64,000 nt of DNA from Haloarcula sp. DT43 (GTDB lineage Archaea > Halobacteriota > Halobacteria > Halobacteriales > Haloarculaceae), in NCBI RefSeq assembly GCF_037078405.1, contig NZ_JAYMGZ010000001.1:1178001-1242000 (forward strand), given 5' to 3'. The notes below the pieces were generated by a model. That model was not told the origin of the DNA. It did no database searches and was given only the letters and a program-made list of their open reading frames with translations. Shown here piece by piece: positions 11,026 through 20,652 of the stretch. The translations under genes and the position numbers were made by a program. Numbering within the stretch: position 1 is the stretch's first letter; each line of letters opens with the position of its first letter.

Positions 11026-11952
11026 TCAGTCCTCGTCGCCGTCGGTCGCGCTCCCGAGCACGTCGTCGGGCTCTATCCAGATGACGAACTCGTCTTCGTC
11101 CTCGCGGTCGACGACGCCGTTGATGTACTCGCCGTCGACCGGCGCGGAGTTGACCTCCGACTCGGCGACGGGGACGACCTGTCGGACCTCGTCGACTATC
11201 CAGCCCATCGCGCCTTGCTCCTCGAACACGTCGGCGTCGAAGACGACGATGAGGTTCTGCGTGCCCTCGCTGTCGATGTCCATCATCTCCTTGGGGTCCA
11301 GAATCGTCGTAATCTGGCCCCGCAGGTCGACGACGCCATCGACGTAGTCGTCGGTGTTGGGAACGCGGGTGACCGTGTCACGTTTGACGATTTCCTCGAC
11401 GTAGTCGATGTCGAGACAGTAGTACTCGTCGCCGAGCGCGAACTCGAGCACCCGGACCAGCTCTTCGGTCTGTGTGGACTCGTCGTCGACCGCCGCGGCG
11501 CGAGCGCCGCCCTCGGTCGTCGCCGCGTCGCTCCCTTCCATCGCCTCCTCGATGAGTTCCTGGTCGGGCAGTTCGACGCCGGTCGGCCCCTGCATCGGGT
11601 TGGCCGACGCCGAGAGGTCGTCGGTCGGCTGGTCGACAGCGTCGGCGTCCGAGTCGGTGTCACCGGCCACCTGCTCGGAGGCCTCGGCCGCCCGCTGTGC
11701 GGCGGCCATCGCGTCGGCGGTGTCGTCGCCGGCGTCCGAGTCAGCCTCGTCGCTCTCGGCCGTCTGTCCGTCGGCGGCCACGTCGTCGGTGTCGGCGGTC
11801 TCGGTCGCCGGCTCCTCGCTCTCCGGTGGTTCACCGGCCCCGTCCGCGGAGGCGTCGCCCGCTTCCTCGGCGTCGTCGGTACTTTCCGCCTTGTTCCCCT
11901 CGCGCATCTGCCGGATGCGCTCCGCCCTGTCCATGCGTTCGTCGTCACTCAT
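11026..11952 (-). CDS. cheW: CheW-type chemotaxis scaffold with long acidic N-terminal extension
   Basis: CheW couples chemoreceptors to the kinase CheA. The C-terminal domain (about residues 160-300) has the typical CheW pattern: VRVLEFALGDEYYCLDIDYVEEIV, VPNTDDYVDGVVDLRGQI, TTILDPKEMM and GWIVDEVRQVVPV. The first 150 or so residues are low-complexity, rich in Asp, Glu, Ala and Thr, and probably disordered, which makes the protein about twice the usual CheW length. The start codon overlaps the stop of the ParA-type gene by ATGA (11949-11952), so the two are translationally coupled. That linkage suggests the ATPase positions CheW-containing arrays. Confidence 0.88.
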   Translation of the reverse strand: MSDDERMDRAERIRQMREGNKAESTDDAEEAGDASADGAGEPPESEEPATETADTDDVAADGQTAESDEADSDAGDDTADAMAAAQRAAEASEQVAGDTDSDADAVDQPTDDLSASANPMQGPTGVELPDQELIEEAMEGSDAATTEGGARAAAVDDESTQTEELVRVLEFALGDEYYCLDIDYVEEIVKRDTVTRVPNTDDYVDGVVDLRGQITTILDPKEMMDIDSEGTQNLIVVFDADVFEEQGAMGWIVDEVRQVVPVAESEVNSAPVDGEYINGVVDREDEDEFVIWIEPDDVLGSATDGDED

Positions 11953-12851
11953 GCTGGTACCTCTGTGTCGGTAAAGCCGAACTGCTCGTCGAGTTCCGCG
12001 GCGATGTCCTCGAAGACAGCCGCCATGTCACACGGTTCCTCGGCCGCGAAGATAGACTGGCCGGCGCTGAACGCCCGCTGGAGCGCCACGCGCTTGCGGA
12101 CCTCCCAGACCGGGCTGTCCGGGAACGCCATGTTGAACCACTCGAGCATCGTCTCGTCCTCGGAGGTGGTCTCGACGCGGTTGGCGACGACCCCGAGCGT
12201 GGTTATCGACGCGTCGGTCCCGCGCTCCATCGCGGCCATCTGGTCCATCAGCAGTTCGATGGCCCGCTCGGAGGTGGCCTCAGTCAGTGCGGGAACGAGG
12301 ACGTTCTGTGCGGCGTACATGCCCGTGTCCGTCAGTTTCCCGTAGAACGGCGGGCAGTCGATGATGACGTAGTCGTAGTCGGCCTCGACCGTCGACAGCG
12401 CCCGGTCGAGCGTATCGAGCGCGTGTGACCCGGTGACCATCTCCGGCGTGACGTTGATGGCAAACGAGGCCAGCGCGTCCCGGTCGACGTCCCCGCCCTG
12501 GGTGTTGGCCCGGGCGAGGAGGTCCGCGATGGTCAGTTCGTGTTCGGCCTGGAGCATGTCGATGCTCGACGGAACCACGTCCATCTCCTCGCCCTCACAG
12601 ATGAGGTCGCCCAGCGCCGACGGGTCGCCGGTCAGCGCGTCGAACAGCGTCGGCGGGTCGGCGTCGTAGGCCTCGACCAGACCGACGCCCTCCGTCGCGT
12701 TGCCCTGGGGGTCGAGGTCGATGAAGAGGACGTCCCGGCCGCGGTCGTTCAGTGCACCGGCTACGTTGATAGCAACCGTCGTCTTTCCGGTCCCGCCTTT
12801 CGCGTTGGTCACGCAGAAGCGGGCTGGACCGGTTTCTGATTGCCGGCTCAT
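11949..12851 (-). CDS. ParA/MinD-superfamily partitioning ATPase linked to CheW
   Basis: This 300-residue P-loop ATPase has the deviant Walker A motif NAKGGTGKTTVA with the signature lysine, FIDLDPQGNATEG just after, and Walker B YVIIDCPP near residue 170. It lacks an obvious C-terminal amphipathic membrane helix, which places it nearer ParA/Soj than MinD. The start at 12851 (MSRQSETGPARFCVTN) is chosen because the P-loop then sits at its usual position; the 27 extra residues to 12932 lie in promoter sequence. Overlap with cheW suggests a role like the ParA homologues that segregate chemosensory clusters (ParC of Vibrio, PpfA of Rhodobacter), which is inference. Confidence 0.87.
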   Translation of the reverse strand: MSRQSETGPARFCVTNAKGGTGKTTVAINVAGALNDRGRDVLFIDLDPQGNATEGVGLVEAYDADPPTLFDALTGDPSALGDLICEGEEMDVVPSSIDMLQAEHELTIADLLARANTQGGDVDRDALASFAINVTPEMVTGSHALDTLDRALSTVEADYDYVIIDCPPFYGKLTDTGMYAAQNVLVPALTEATSERAIELLMDQMAAMERGTDASITTLGVVANRVETTSEDETMLEWFNMAFPDSPVWEVRKRVALQRAFSAGQSIFAAEEPCDMAAVFEDIAAELDEQFGFTDTEVPA

Positions 12852-12884
12852 CGTCGAAGTATCCACAGGTCGACCCCGAGTCAC

Positions 12885-12892
12885 TATAAAAA
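12885..12892 (-). promoter_or_regulatory. TATA box of the parA-cheW pair
   Basis: Read on the minus strand the sequence is TTTTTATAGTG, centred about 37 bases before the chosen ATG at 12851. It lies inside the 173-bp divergent intergenic region shared with the FlaD/E gene. Confidence 0.5.
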
Positions 12893-13024
12893 TGTGGTCC
12901 CGATTATCAACGCCGCAACTGGGGGACGGCACGCGGCAGAGCGGGAAACGCCCGTGAACGCGTGCATGACGGCCGTCAGACGGTGTGCAAGATTTATGAT
13001 TGTGTAGATTGAAGGGTCAGTATC

Positions 13025-13510
13025 ATGACCATCAACCCGCGCGACTACGACCTCGACGAGCTACGGAAGATGGCTCGCCAGCGGGGGAACGGGATGGGCG
13101 ACGAGGAGGTCCCGGACCCGACGAACCTGGATATGGGACTGGACGGCGACGACGAAGAAGTGCTCGCGGGGAGTTCCTTCCGCTCCGGGCTGTACCGCGA
13201 ACTCCTGCCGTTCCTCGGTGGCGAGGCCCAGGAGAAGCCCTACCTCGAAACCCTGCCAGAGACGTACGCCGCGGAGTTCGTCGTCTTCGAGTGGCTGGAG
13301 TTCCTGCTGATGCACTCCGGCTACCAGGGGGCCGACGAAGCGCTCGACTACTACCGCTCTATCGACTGGATAACCGAGGCCGTCCAGGACGACCTCTCGG
13401 ACTACCTGCTCGGCATCGACGAGTCCGCGACCAACGACGACAACGAACTGAGCGTCGACGACCACATGCTGAGTCTCGTCTACGTCGCGAAGCTCACCGC
13501 GATGACGTAA
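13025..13510 (+). CDS. FlaD/E (ArlD/E)-domain protein, stand-alone
   Basis: The 161-residue product consists of a short N-terminal linker starting with NPRDYDLDELRKMA and a C-terminal FlaD/E domain (KPYLETLPETYAAEFVVFEW, LEFLLMHSGYQGADEAL, YYRSIDWITEAV). Archaeal FlaD/E domains are found in archaellum accessory proteins (ArlC/D/E) that link the motor to the chemotaxis adaptor CheF. No archaellin or motor genes are nearby, so this is a detached member. It is divergent from parA-cheW and followed by an actin-like gene, which supports a structural or positioning role. A TATA-like ATTTATG lies about 32 bases before the ATG. Confidence 0.83.
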   Translation: MTINPRDYDLDELRKMARQRGNGMGDEEVPDPTNLDMGLDGDDEEVLAGSSFRSGLYRELLPFLGGEAQEKPYLETLPETYAAEFVVFEWLEFLLMHSGYQGADEALDYYRSIDWITEAVQDDLSDYLLGIDESATNDDNELSVDDHMLSLVYVAKLTAMT

Positions 13511-13606
13511 CCCCCTCTTACTCGCCCGCTCCGAATCCCTGACAGCGCCGGCCGTCCGTATCGACTGCCCGAGGGGACGGCTATCAGACATGAATACTAG
13601 GGAGAG

Positions 13607-13614
13607 GATATATA
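13607..13614 (+). promoter_or_regulatory. TATA box of the actin-like gene
   Basis: GATATATAG lies about 31 bases before ATG 13642, in a 131-bp gap after the FlaD/E gene. The actin-like gene therefore has its own promoter and is not simply read through. Confidence 0.55.
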
Positions 13615-13641
13615 GCGGGCGGTCGACAAGGACGACCGTAC

Positions 13642-14736
13642 ATGAGTGACGAGGATGCGGACGACGACACCGGGTCCGAATCGGACGCCGGTGTGTCGTC
13701 AAGCGGCGCTGCCGCTGTTCCGGTCGGGGTCAAGCTCGGGAGCACCCGGACCGTCATTGCCCTGCCGGGCGAACACGGCACGGAGAACCGGATTATCAAG
13801 ACGCTGACGTGCATGGCGACCTACGAGGATGCCCTGACCGGCGAGGAGAAGGTCCTCTACGGCGAGGAGGCGGCCCGGGAGTACCCGGACCGCGTCCAGT
13901 ACATGCTCCGGTCGGGACTGCCCGAGGACGCCGACCGGGCCGAGATGACCAAGACGTTCTTCGAGGCGATAATCGAGGAACACGACATCCCGGAACACAG
14001 CGGCGTCGTCTACGCCATCCCGACCATCGACAACCCGACCGGGCTGGAGAACCTCCGAGACGTCATCGAGAACTCCCCTATCGGGCTGGACCTGGTCGAG
14101 AGCTACCCCGAGTCGCTATGTGGCTCTATCCCGGCCTTCGGCGACGACCTCGAAGCCATCGACGAGATATTCGTCGCCGTCAACATGGGGTCGACGAACC
14201 TCGAAGCCTCCGCCTACCGCCGGGGCGAACAGCTCTCCCCGTTCACGACGGGCGCGGTGACCGGCAACGAGGTCGACCGCATGATAGCGAACTACGTCGA
14301 GGAAGAGACTCAGGGCCGAGTCAACATCGACACCCAGACCGCCCGCGAGTACAAGGAGGAACACGCCGATTTCGTCGACTTCGAGCCGTTCACGGACATC
14401 ATCCAGCAGCCCGGCGGCGGCTCGCACGAGTTCACCATCGAGCGCTCGGTGATGGACGCCCTCGACGAGTACCTTGACGACGCCGTCGACGAACTGGCGA
14501 ACACGTTCCTGCCGGAACTGGCCAACGACTACATGAAGGTGTACCAGCTCGCGCTGGACCGACCCATCGCCCTCACCGGCGGCATGGCTTGTATCCCCGG
14601 CATCGTCGACGAGTTCGAGGAGCGCCTCAGCGCGGAACTGAACCGCGACATTGAGGTCATCGCCGCCGACGAACCGGACGTCGCGCCGACCATCGGCGCA
14701 CAGCGCATCGCGGCGCGGCTCGTCGAGACCAACTAG
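13642..14736 (+). CDS. Haloarchaeal actin-like ATPase (salactin/volactin/MreB type)
   Basis: The 364-residue product has actin-superfamily landmarks: phosphate-1 loop VPVGVKLGSTRTVIALPG (about residues 27-44), connect and phosphate-2 segment EIFVAVNMGSTNLEASAYRRG (about 177-197), and the adenosine motif ALTGGMACIPGI (about 308-319). A charged tail of about 25 residues precedes the fold. Haloarchaeal members of this group (salactin of Halobacterium, volactin of Haloferax) form dynamic filaments; which of these is the orthologue cannot be told here. Its neighbours FlaD/E, ParA and CheW are unusual and suggest a link between filaments and motility or chemosensory organisation. Confidence 0.85.
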   Translation: MSDEDADDDTGSESDAGVSSSGAAAVPVGVKLGSTRTVIALPGEHGTENRIIKTLTCMATYEDALTGEEKVLYGEEAAREYPDRVQYMLRSGLPEDADRAEMTKTFFEAIIEEHDIPEHSGVVYAIPTIDNPTGLENLRDVIENSPIGLDLVESYPESLCGSIPAFGDDLEAIDEIFVAVNMGSTNLEASAYRRGEQLSPFTTGAVTGNEVDRMIANYVEEETQGRVNIDTQTAREYKEEHADFVDFEPFTDIIQQPGGGSHEFTIERSVMDALDEYLDDAVDELANTFLPELANDYMKVYQLALDRPIALTGGMACIPGIVDEFEERLSAELNRDIEVIAADEPDVAPTIGAQRIAARLVETN

Positions 14737-14906
14737 GGGTTCCGCCAGCAGTTCAGCCACCGCTCGATTCTCGGCTCCGGTCGCGCCATCCTGTGGCCCC
14801 GACCGGTCGATAGCAGTTCGAACACGTCGGTGTCGATGCCGAGGCTGGTCGCGTCGGTCGAGAGACCACCCTGTGGGCTCCGCTCTCCGAGACGGCTCCG
14901 TGCCAT
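14733..14906 (-). CDS. Possible small protein antisense to the 3' end of the actin-like gene
   Basis: A 57-residue ORF begins at ATG 14906 and ends at 14733, with a 2-base stop overlap against the convergent actin-like gene. It encodes MARSRLGERSPQGG, then LGIDTDVFELL and a tryptophan-rich end (ERWLNCWRNP). Codon use is G/C-rich at third positions, and a TATA-like CTTTAGGTAT on the minus strand lies about 25 bases before the ATG, the spacing of a leaderless haloarchaeal transcript. I do not recognise the family. It could also be chance within a 363-bp gap. Confidence 0.4.
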   Translation of the reverse strand: MARSRLGERSPQGGLSTDATSLGIDTDVFELLSTGRGHRMARPEPRIERWLNCWRNP

Positions 14907-15099
14907 ACGTCGCGTTCGGGCACATGATACCTAAAGCCAAGTCAGACGGCCGTCTGCCGGCCGGCGGACGGCCCGGCACGAGACCGTGGCCCGACCGGGG
15001 ACTGTCGGGTCGATACACCCGAGAATCGTATTAATTTACGGCGTCGGTATCAGAATAGATAAGTGAATATCAAGGCCTAAGACGTATTCTAACCCGATA
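14907..15099. other. Intergenic region upstream of the PH-like/helical-repeat gene
   Basis: The rest of the gap between the actin-like gene and the next plus-strand gene holds no convincing ORF. It contains a GC-rich imperfect inverted repeat around 14948-14975 (GACGGCCGTCTGCCGGCC) and an AT-rich 70-bp stretch before ATG 15100. A CCTAAGAC patch about 25 bases upstream is the likely TATA element. Confidence 0.5.
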
Positions 15100-16596
15100 A
15101 TGGGAAAAATTATCAACTTGAATAATTGCGAGGGCGACCCGCCCGACCTCCTCACCGGGACCGGTCCGGGGGGGCTCCTCTCGTCGGGGTATCTCCACGA
15201 CGGCCCGGCGCTGGCGGCCGTCGACGACGACGAGACGCCGCAGTTCGTTCTCACCAGCCGCAAGCACGGCGTCGAAATCGGTCCGCCGGACGCCGGCGAG
15301 ACGGTCCAGCCGGGACGCAACTATCGCATGATAGGGGTCGTGACGGACAAGCGGTTCCTGGTGCTGGTGGGCGACGCCGACGGCGATACGCGGTTTTCCG
15401 TCCCGCACGTCGACCTCGACCAGATAGCCAGCGACAGGTCGCTGGGGCACGGCCGGGTCACGTTTCGGCGGTGTGGCGACACGGAGTGGCGGGTCCACTG
15501 CGGCAAACAGGGCCTCGTCGACCTGACCGCGTACCTCTCGCACGCGTCGCAGGCGTGGGTTCGCGTCGAGAACATCCTCGACGAGGTCAAGCGGATGCTC
15601 GTCACGGCGACCGAACAGCGCGACCAGGGGGACCACGAGGGGGCGCTGGAGACGGCTCAGGAGGCCGGGGACCGCCTCGACACGGCCGGCGAGACGGCCG
15701 CCGAGTTTGGCCCGCCCGGGGACGCGAACGCGCTCGAAGGCCGCGTCAGGACCGTCCGGGAGCGCCACGCCGCGACACTCACCGAGGTTCGGCGCAGTCG
15801 CGCCCGGCGGGCGGTCGACACCGGCGAGCAACGCTGGCGGGACAACGACTTCGAAGCGGCCTACGAGGCCTACGACGCGGCGCGGTCGGAGTACGACGCC
15901 ATCGTCTCGCTCCCGAGCGAGTCCGTCCCCGACCTCGCCGACGTCCGCGAGGAACGCGAGCGACTGGACGACGTCGTCGCGGACCTCGAACGGTCGCCGC
16001 TCCGCACCGCGGTCGCGGCCGACAACGAGGCCGTCGCGGCGGAGGACCCCGCCGTCGCCGCCGACCACTGGGCCGAGGCGCTCGACGCCTACCGCGAGGT
16101 CCTCGAACTCGACTGGGGCGCAGACGAGCGGCGATTCGCCGGCGACCCCGAGAAGGTCCGCGACCGGCTGGGGGCCGTCGCGGAGAACCTCGTCGCCGCC
16201 CGGCGGACCGTCGCCACGGACGCGATGGAGGCCGGGGACTGGTACGCCGACGCCGGCCAGCCCGACGTCGCCCTGGAGGAGTACGAGGCGGCACGGGCAG
16301 CGTTCGAGACGGCCCTGGCGGCCGCGCGGGACTGTTACCCGGACGCCACCGACCACCTGGAGGCGGAACTCGACGCCGTCGAACAGCGACTCTCGCGGAC
16401 GGAGGCCAGGCTCGGCGGCGAGCGCGTCGACGTGGACGAACGCTTCGACGAGACCGAGCCGGTGCCGGACGTGGACCTGCCGGCCACCGACGACCGCTCG
16501 CTGTCGCCGGCCGACACCGCCGACCTCGCGGACGCCGAGGGCGGCATCGACGACGCCGACCCGAAAATCGACCCGACCGGCCACGGCGGGTCGTAG
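15100..16596 (+). CDS. PH-like N-terminal domain protein with helical-repeat (TPR-like) C terminus
   Basis: I do not recognise a named family for this 498-residue protein. The first 115 or so residues resemble haloarchaeal PH-like domains (VLTSRKHGVEIGP, NYRMIGVVTDKRFLVLVGD, DTRFSVPHVDLDQI). Residues about 125-450 are almost entirely charged alpha-helix with repeated pairs such as AAYEAYDAARSEYDAIV, DHWAEALDAYREVLEL and DVALEEYEAARAAFETAL, which look like TPR-type helices. The tail is acidic and disordered. Such an arrangement suggests an adaptor that binds membrane or protein through the PH-like part. It follows the actin-like gene in the same direction but has its own AT-rich leader. Confidence 0.6.
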   Translation: MGKIINLNNCEGDPPDLLTGTGPGGLLSSGYLHDGPALAAVDDDETPQFVLTSRKHGVEIGPPDAGETVQPGRNYRMIGVVTDKRFLVLVGDADGDTRFSVPHVDLDQIASDRSLGHGRVTFRRCGDTEWRVHCGKQGLVDLTAYLSHASQAWVRVENILDEVKRMLVTATEQRDQGDHEGALETAQEAGDRLDTAGETAAEFGPPGDANALEGRVRTVRERHAATLTEVRRSRARRAVDTGEQRWRDNDFEAAYEAYDAARSEYDAIVSLPSESVPDLADVREERERLDDVVADLERSPLRTAVAADNEAVAAEDPAVAADHWAEALDAYREVLELDWGADERRFAGDPEKVRDRLGAVAENLVAARRTVATDAMEAGDWYADAGQPDVALEEYEAARAAFETALAAARDCYPDATDHLEAELDAVEQRLSRTEARLGGERVDVDERFDETEPVPDVDLPATDDRSLSPADTADLADAEGGIDDADPKIDPTGHGGS

Positions 16597-16990: not shown

Positions 16991-19258
<2,268 letters not shown>

Positions 19259-19304
19259 ACAGCCGCGGCCGGACGTCAGCGAACGCGTCGCTGCGTCCGT
19301 TCTT

Positions 19305-20630
19305 TCACTCGGTCCCCGTCCGCGCGCCGTAGCTCCCGGTGTCGGCGCGGTTCCCGCGCCGAATCAGTTCGCGGTCGGTCGGCGGCAGTTCCTCGCCGTC
19401 CAGCGGGATGTGCCAGTGACCCAGCGCGCCGAGGATTCGCGTCCGGCTCCCCTCCACGTCGAGTCTGAGCGTCGGGCCGAGCGAGCCGCCGAACCGGCGC
19501 ATCTGCTCGGACTCGGGCAGGTGGGCGATTTCGTCCAGCGTCTCGCCGTCGAAGTCGTAGTAGTTGAAGAAGCTCTGGACCAGCACCTCCTCGCCGTGGG
19601 GGAAGGCCATCCACGAGTACGACTGGAACGGCGCGTTCGCGGGGTTCGTGGCGACCAGCCCGGAGTCGTTCAGCGGGACGTACTCGCCCCGCAACTCCTC
19701 GGCGACGAAGCCGTACAGCGCGTCGAACCCGTCCAGGCCCGGCGCGAAGGTGTGGAGGTGGCTGGAGACGAACAGGTAGTACAGGCCGTCACGGTACACG
19801 ACGTGGGGGCGTTCGAGTTCCTGATTGACGCCCACGGCGTCAAGCAGCGGGTCTTCGAGTTCCCACTCCAGCGGGTCGCCCGTCGGCGAGCGGGCGAGGC
19901 CCACGCTCCCGTTGAACTCCTGGAGTGCGGCGTCACCGCCGCAGGCGTCGCTACCCTCGGGGACCGGCGTGTTCGCCTCGAACAGGAGCCACGTCTCGCC
20001 CGTCGCGGGGTCCTCGAAGAACCACGGGTCGCGGAAGGTGTATATCATCCCCCGGGACTGCTCCTCGCGCTCGTAGCGGTCGCCGTCCGGAGTGAGCAGT
20101 TCGTGATGGGTCCACGGTCCCGAGAGGTCGAACCCGTCGTCGGTGTCGATTCGCCCGCCGCTCGCGCCGACGATGCGCTGCGTGTAGGTCAGGTCCTCGC
20201 TCCCCTCCTCGCCGGCGGCGGTGTAGTAGAGATAGACGCTGCCGTCATCGTCGTACAGCGCCGACCCGGCCCACTGGCGCTGGCCCAGGGCCGCCTCGAA
20301 CACCGGGCCGGCGTTGTGCCAGGTGCGGCCGTCCTCGGAGTAGAAACAGCGGATGGTCGCCACGTCGTGGCGCTTGCCGGGCAGCAGGTCCGACGGGGCC
20401 GTCAGCGAGAAACAGACCCGGTAGCCGTCGACCGAAGCGAGCGTGCCGTCGCGCTCGCGGAGGAACCAGGTGTCCCAGATGTGGACCTCCGGGACCTGGT
20501 CGGTCGCGGGCGGGTAGACGATTGGGGCGACGGTGTCGTCGGTCCGCTCGATGCGACGCGCCTGCTCGCGCGTCCAGCCGGCGCGAGCCCTCGTTCCGGG
20601 ACGACTCTCGCCGCGTGTCTCGTCTGTCAT
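19305..20630 (-). CDS. GH68 levansucrase / inulosucrase-type fructosyltransferase
   Basis: This enzyme cleaves sucrose and transfers fructose to a growing levan chain or to water. The 441-residue product has all three GH68 catalytic residues: nucleophile Asp53 in VHIWDTWFL, stabiliser Asp201 in TFRDPWFFED and acid/base Glu273 in ELERPHVVY. No Sec or Tat signal is visible, although haloarchaeal GH68 proteins are often reported without one. The start at 20630 (MTDETRGESR) lies 27 bases after a minus-strand TATA box. Convergence with the GH32 enzyme suggests one fructan synthesis/degradation unit. Confidence 0.92.
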   Translation of the reverse strand: MTDETRGESRPGTRARAGWTREQARRIERTDDTVAPIVYPPATDQVPEVHIWDTWFLRERDGTLASVDGYRVCFSLTAPSDLLPGKRHDVATIRCFYSEDGRTWHNAGPVFEAALGQRQWAGSALYDDDGSVYLYYTAAGEEGSEDLTYTQRIVGASGGRIDTDDGFDLSGPWTHHELLTPDGDRYEREEQSRGMIYTFRDPWFFEDPATGETWLLFEANTPVPEGSDACGGDAALQEFNGSVGLARSPTGDPLEWELEDPLLDAVGVNQELERPHVVYRDGLYYLFVSSHLHTFAPGLDGFDALYGFVAEELRGEYVPLNDSGLVATNPANAPFQSYSWMAFPHGEEVLVQSFFNYYDFDGETLDEIAHLPESEQMRRFGGSLGPTLRLDVEGSRTRILGALGHWHIPLDGEELPPTDRELIRRGNRADTGSYGARTGTE

Positions 20631-20652
20631 ACCCCACGTTGGGCCGACCACG

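Follow-up and report, generated by a model that had tools for sequence, protein, structure and literature searches.

Salactin is, to our knowledge, the first archaeal actin whose dynamics in vivo are known. In Halobacterium salinarum its filaments were found to be dynamically unstable and to grow out from the cell poles, in a study that reported poor synteny and did not mention archaella or pili (PMC10746226). FlaD (ArlD), a component of the archaellum switch complex, is also polar: in Haloferax volcanii archaella are lost when flaD is deleted, and FlaD-GFP was seen at the poles as well as in small foci moving between them (PMC6509185). In bacteria chemosensory arrays are positioned by ParA-type ATPases, and it was shown that the activating proteins of ParA/MinD ATPases consist of an interaction domain to which a basic peptide is grafted at the N-terminus; examples include Spo0J, SopB, MinE, ParG and PomX, and TlpT and McdB were suggested as further cases (PMC7993993). 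Here we describe a block of genes of Haloarcula sp. DT43, lying in a 64-kb stretch of contig NZ_JAYMGZ010000001.1 (positions 1,178,001 to 1,242,000; hereafter the window), in which a ParA/Soj-type ATPase gene and a CheW-domain adaptor gene (parA-cheW2) stand beside arlD and salactin (Table 1). We lean towards reading the block as a pair of modules, ParA-CheW2 and ArlD-Salactin, that position the machinery for swimming and sensing.

Families were called in the window proteins by Pfam and NCBIfam profile matches at curated cut-offs, while genes at the compared loci were called with a composition-based script and checked by hidden Markov model. Profile matches bore out an earlier note on this DNA, which had placed a CheW, a ParA-type ATPase, an FlaD/E protein and an actin here and had proposed that they form one module. 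That proposal stands as far as the gene pairs are concerned, since these are conserved, and falls for a single four-gene unit: a conserved four-gene operon was ruled out, the pairs being often separate and together only in part of the Haloarculaceae. The grouping is far beyond chance, because parA stays with its cheW in 52 of 52 loci and, of 83 salactin-bearing haloarchaeal genomes, 66 (covering 29 of 32 genera) have arlD as the immediate same-strand neighbour 5' of salactin, two comparisons that the note had suggested. Sampling of genomes was uneven, and those that are related do not count as independent.

The stop codon of parA overlaps the start codon of cheW2 through ATGA, as had been noticed before, and the same overlap is present in 43 of 49 loci. 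By gene calls a same-strand cheW adjoins parA in 51 of the 52 loci, and in the last (G041) the adjoining cheW was found by direct search; at all of them parA thus has the partner expected of a ParC/ParP-type pair, with a CheW-like domain and an N-terminal extension. The acidic extension described in the earlier note is real and about 160 residues long, with a linker of net charge -44 (127-262 residues in orthologues), and its telling part is a conserved Arg-rich N-terminal tip. This tip has the consensus RMDRAxRIRxMREGxR, with 8 of 16 positions invariant among 48 orthologues, in which mean pairwise identity is 78% in the tip, 29% in the linker and 68% in the CheW domain. The first 22 residues of CheW2 include six basic ones, giving the basic N-terminal stretch on an interaction domain that is typical of ParA-activating proteins. 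In one genus of family f4 (g60, two genomes) a ParA with 61-63% identity has a different CheW partner, and the N-terminus of that partner carries Arg-rich repeats of the RAERLR/RADRIS type.

The ATPase carries a deviant Walker A motif (KGGTGKTT), and its closest relatives of solved structure are ParA/Soj chains. Its start is likely the ATG at 12851, to which the orthologues point. The match to the archaeal MinD model (NCBIfam minD_arch) was 66.5 bits against a cut-off of 201.75 and that to NF041546 was 92.3 bits, below its cut-off of 180. No ParB gene, the mark of a ParABS system, adjoins parA, whose neighbours are cheW2 and arlD. ParA seems likelier to bind the nucleoid than the membrane, because its relatives are Soj-like and it lacks a C-terminal amphipathic helix; the C-termini of the orthologues displayed are acidic. 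The pair does not belong to a che operon, as the che cluster of this genome lies about 570 kb off (C1:605-625 kb, compared with 1189 kb). A CheW-domain fragment interrupted by in-frame stop codons, which may be a chemotaxis gene in decay, was observed at G000:C3:617405-617728.

The H. salinarum protein named CheW2 binds receptors and not CheA, and competition with CheW1 for receptors was proposed for it (PMC3579733). By analogy, the CheW2 of the window could be mainly a signalling modulator rivalling CheW1, with ParA only setting its availability. We regard this as very unlikely, as the short arl-cluster CheWs from family f2, which the cleanest calls put at about 131 aa, have neither the extension nor the Arg-rich tip and are unpaired with this ParA. 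That the two CheW2 proteins are the same was ruled out on the f2 genomes, where the arl-cluster CheW without extension lies near a MinD-like ATPase. In these loci (L125:1-20000, L126, L127, L129, L130) the ATPase gene is located in the arl cluster past arlI and a gene for a protein of about 579 aa, and the C-terminal tail of its product, KLFDRVKSKFS, is basic and looks amphipathic; it is a different ATPase beside a different CheW.

The actin of the second pair was assigned to Salactin by full-length matches to NF053533 (601.7 bits, cut-off 400) and PF25229 (cut-off 27.1), and its match to the Volactin family PF25216 (22.0 bits) fell below the cut-off of 35. It is about 96% identical to the Salactin of several Haloarcula species. 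By family, arlD directly precedes salactin in 36 of 37 genomes of f4, which contains Haloferax, Halobellus and Halorubrum, in 29 of 42 Haloarculaceae (f1), in the single f5 genome and in none of three f2 genomes; in a separate count the pair was present at 66 of 80 named-record loci. In the f2 genomes only arlD belongs to the arl cluster, salactin being located at another site, and their arl-cheW layout fits the one described for H. salinarum. The published context search, centred on Halobacterium, could not see the pair, because there arlD and salactin are apart. In several f4 genera (g22, g34, g58, g67, g83) the order is cheY-cheC-cheD-(x)-arlD-salactin, adjoining arl genes, and Halovenus-type genomes (L091, L156, L265, L267) have two salactin copies within the arl operon; extra arlCE/arlH copies were also observed in these operons. 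In H. volcanii, ArlD/HVO_1202 was listed as a transcriptional unit next to CheY/C/D (2026; PMC13286277), and the gene order in other Haloferax (L279, L280) suggests that HVO_1202 is the salactin gene. Just past arlD-salactin and a PAS-domain kinase gene, Haloferax-type loci also hold a second, divergent small FlaD/E gene of about 149 aa (L133:16275-16724, L134:17010-17459, L135:16817-17272).

In its 161 aa the small FlaD/E protein has no family besides PF04659 and lacks a FlaC domain. At the threshold used, the genome holds one other FlaD/E protein, a 544-aa FlaC-D/E fusion (ArlCE) whose gene is part of the arl cluster at C1:620 kb. A tree of 128 FlaD/E domains, whose few columns leave fine details unresolved, places the salactin-linked small proteins with the small arl-cluster ArlD of f2 and apart from ArlCE (support 93/89), from which we infer that the gene encodes ArlD of the archaellum switch. 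The AlphaFold 2 (AF2) model of ArlD is helical, with a predicted local distance difference test score (pLDDT) of 81; no fold relative was found in the PDB by sequence, and Foldseek gave nothing below E 1.6. An N-terminal motif, NPRxYDxxELR, was considered as a Salactin-binding peptide and ruled out as Salactin-specific, since similar motifs occur in salactin-less f2 and f6 genomes and are absent from some salactin-linked ArlDs.

Across 391 genomes, 175 had both salactin and CheF, 11 salactin only, 58 CheF only and 147 neither, an odds ratio of 40 that ignores relatedness. Among the salactin-only genomes, G110 and G251 retain an archaellum cluster, and in G379 salactin itself is broken; the other eight (G183, G276, G289, G334, G337, G351, G360, G388), of four genera (g12, g51, g3, g16), have no recognisable CheF. 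In these eight FlaC had no match that passes the curated cut-off by itself (best E 1.6e-5), and archaellin had none in seven, G289 holding only a remnant with two stop codons (L325:5212-5448) and, apparently, having lost swimming recently, with its arlD-salactin pair intact. In all eight arlD is directly beside salactin, and in seven it is the sole FlaD/E gene of the genome. The pair thus persists in every one of these CheF- and FlaC-less genomes, gene evidence that the role shared by the small FlaD/E protein and Salactin outlasts the archaellum. The absence of FlaD/E from salactin-less, CheF-less Haloarculaceae, seemingly an exact converse of this pattern, was left unused as evidence, as the phmmer threshold missed a true case (G183).

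This persistence, together with the DNA-partition defect of Delta-salactin H. salinarum in low phosphate (PMC10746226), could also mean that Salactin is a DNA-segregation actin, as published, with arlD as a dedicated cofactor that derives from the archaellum and acts as anchor or ParR-like adaptor, the motility link being historical. This reading seems unlikely to us, as salactin lies within che/arl clusters in several f4 genera and, in Halovenus-type genomes, within the arl operon, it follows the presence of chemotaxis genes across the 391 genomes, and in other archaea it stands beside pilus-type genes (see below). Clustering of a regulon, in which the genes share expression in motile cells while neither ArlD and Salactin nor ParA and CheW2 touch each other, would agree with the separate TATA-like boxes of parA, arlD and salactin (boxes read from the sequence) and with the general clustering of haloarchaeal motility genes. 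We hold it to be improbable, given that arlD alone of many motility genes stays beside salactin, even at sites distant from the che/arl cluster and in genomes that have lost the tested archaellum genes, and that parA and cheW2 share a 4-bp overlap and a conserved ParA-type activating peptide.

Salactin was also found outside the haloarchaea. In the Archaeoglobus-like class of G412 (families f15 and f32, which we take to be Archaeoglobi) salactin is followed by genes for a coiled-coil protein and a ParA/MinD-family ATPase, an order seen in 13 of 13 loci in which the contig continues; these ParA proteins are of a different subfamily from the ParA of the window. Type-IV-filament genes adjoin salactin in five loci of this class, with a T2SSF platform protein in four, and in L219 genes for a PilB3-type ATPase, T2SSF and a pilin-like protein lie just upstream. 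In f19, presumably Methanocella-like archaea, a gene for an archaeal A24-type prepilin peptidase follows salactin in three of four cases. Judged by these neighbourhoods, the link of Salactin to type-IV-filament machines and ParA/MinD ATPases recurs beyond the haloarchaea; a census of archaeal type IV pili mentions no actin (PMC4858521). More speculatively, Salactin might be the ancestral cytoskeletal arm of the type-IV-filament machines of Methanotecta, with ArlD or a coiled-coil protein plus ParA/MinD as partner, to which the Haloarculaceae would have joined ParA-CheW2 as an array-placing device. If so, a pole-based Salactin filament would place or pass on archaella and pili.

What we observe is the gene content, its conservation, the peptide, and the persistence of arlD-salactin where the tested archaellum genes are lost; the physical contacts and the positioning function are our proposal. 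CheW2 would sit in the chemoreceptor array via its CheW domain, and its Arg-rich tip, on the long disordered acidic linker, would contact ParA-ATP and trigger hydrolysis. With CheW2 in the array and the tip acting on ParA, ParA would carry or hold the array, probably across the nucleoid, as in PpfA/TlpT or ParC/ParP, and we consider such positioning by ParA-CheW2 likely. A functional partnership of ArlD and Salactin is, in our view, probable as well. ArlD, as part of the switch complex at the poles, would anchor or nucleate the Salactin filament or be its cargo, which is the simplest arrangement because Salactin grows from the poles and ArlD is polar; that ArlD is specifically the pole-side anchor we put forward only tentatively. 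At the poles, the filament would then hold the switch or polar complex in place, or hand it to the daughter cell.

Several observations weigh against this proposal. The strongest concerns a motility role in Halobacterium: the actin of the earlier note is the known Salactin, and Delta-salactin H. salinarum swims like the wild type and shows the partition defect mentioned above (PMC10746226). In that genus salactin does not adjoin arlD, and in many genomes the two modules are separate. A promoter-like box of its own precedes salactin in the window, which makes co-transcription with arlD uncertain there. Chemotaxis without salactin is seen in families f3, f6, f9, f10 and f11 and in a few genomes of f4 and f2; Salactin is therefore not a required archaellum part, and some Halobellus-type genomes (g22) have arlD without salactin. 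Finally, in H. volcanii the arrays are positioned by MinD2/MinD4 (PMC11588486), and ParA-CheW2 is therefore not a general haloarchaeal solution.

Table 1. Features of the parA-cheW2 and arlD-salactin block (window coordinates)
Feature	Position	Strand	Evidence
cheW2, CheW-domain adaptor with Arg-rich N-peptide and ~145-aa acidic linker	11026-11952	-	PF01584, 80.9 bits, residues 168-301
Arg-rich N-terminal peptide of CheW2, RMDRAERIRQMREGNK, candidate ParA-ATPase-activating tip	11890-11937	-	orthologue conservation
parA, ParA/Soj-type ATPase	11949-12851; longest ORF (open reading frame) from 12932	-	AAA_31 (PF13614), 125.8 bits
173-bp divergent intergenic region, parA/arlD	12852-13024	none	TATA-like boxes ~12886-12892 (-, parA) and ~12993-12998 (+, arlD), by eye
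arlD, small FlaD/E-domain protein, 161 aa	13025-13510	+	PF04659, 103.8 bits
TATA-like box atatata, 28 nt 5' of salactin ATG	13608-13614	+	read from sequence
salactin, actin-fold filament protein	13642-14736	+	PF25229, 621 bits; NF053533, 602 bits
Predicted PH domain and TPR-like helical-repeat protein, 498 aa	15100-16596	+	gene maps, AF2 model, PDB fold search

Downstream of salactin lies the gene of a 498-aa protein that had no family match in profile searches. Its AF2 model (mean pLDDT 85) has an N-terminal PH fold and TPR-like helices, in agreement with the PH-like/helical-repeat protein of the earlier note, and Foldseek matched it to the PH domains of Vps36 and USP37 (target TM ~0.6, E ~0.007-0.01). 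According to gene maps it is a frequent downstream neighbour of salactin in Haloarculaceae; several orthologues bear a C-terminal Mrr_cat-like domain (Mrr-type restriction-endonuclease-like), which the window copy does not have. A GH32 fructosidase gene and a GH68 levansucrase/invertase gene adjoin the block (17084-20651); at Haloarcula and Halomicrobium loci, too, the GH32 gene is found downstream of salactin.

The published context search for Salactin gave no lead past nearby DNA genes. The arlD-salactin pairing joins polar actin filaments with polar archaella, and its conserved arlD partner is a direct lead on the role of Salactin in the tractable H. volcanii. ParA-CheW2, if our reading is true, would be an archaeal counterpart of the bacterial ParA-driven positioning of arrays in which the sequence itself reveals the activating peptide.

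Compared with the Salactin of H. salinarum (PMC10746226), the actin described here is of the same family, matching far over the cut-offs, but in the window and in most haloarchaeal genera its gene is directly downstream of arlD. Like ArlD/FlaD of the switch complex (PMC6509185), the small protein has the FlaD/E domain and it clusters with the small arl-cluster ArlD of f2, whereas its gene is outside the arl operon, beside an actin, and persists in genomes that lack a recognisable FlaC and an intact archaellin. The ParC/ParP system of Vibrio (PMC5706961) likewise joins a ParA ATPase to a partner with an N-terminal extension and a C-terminal CheW-like domain. The haloarchaeal pair, in contrast, is outside the che cluster and has no known HubP, and CheW2 has a true CheW-family domain, while the AIF of ParP is nearer to CheA-P5, and an extension made of a short Arg-rich tip and an acidic linker. 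In PpfA/TlpT of Rhodobacter (PMC7993993) a ParA ATPase is also found with a chemosensory protein whose positively charged N-terminus is the suggested activator; TlpT is a receptor, whereas the haloarchaeal partner is a CheW. Like the ParA of the window, MinD2/MinD4 of Haloferax (PMC11588486) are deviant Walker ATPases, and they act on polar chemosensory arrays, but the window ParA is Soj-like, is without the C-terminal amphipathic helix and has a CheW partner of its own.

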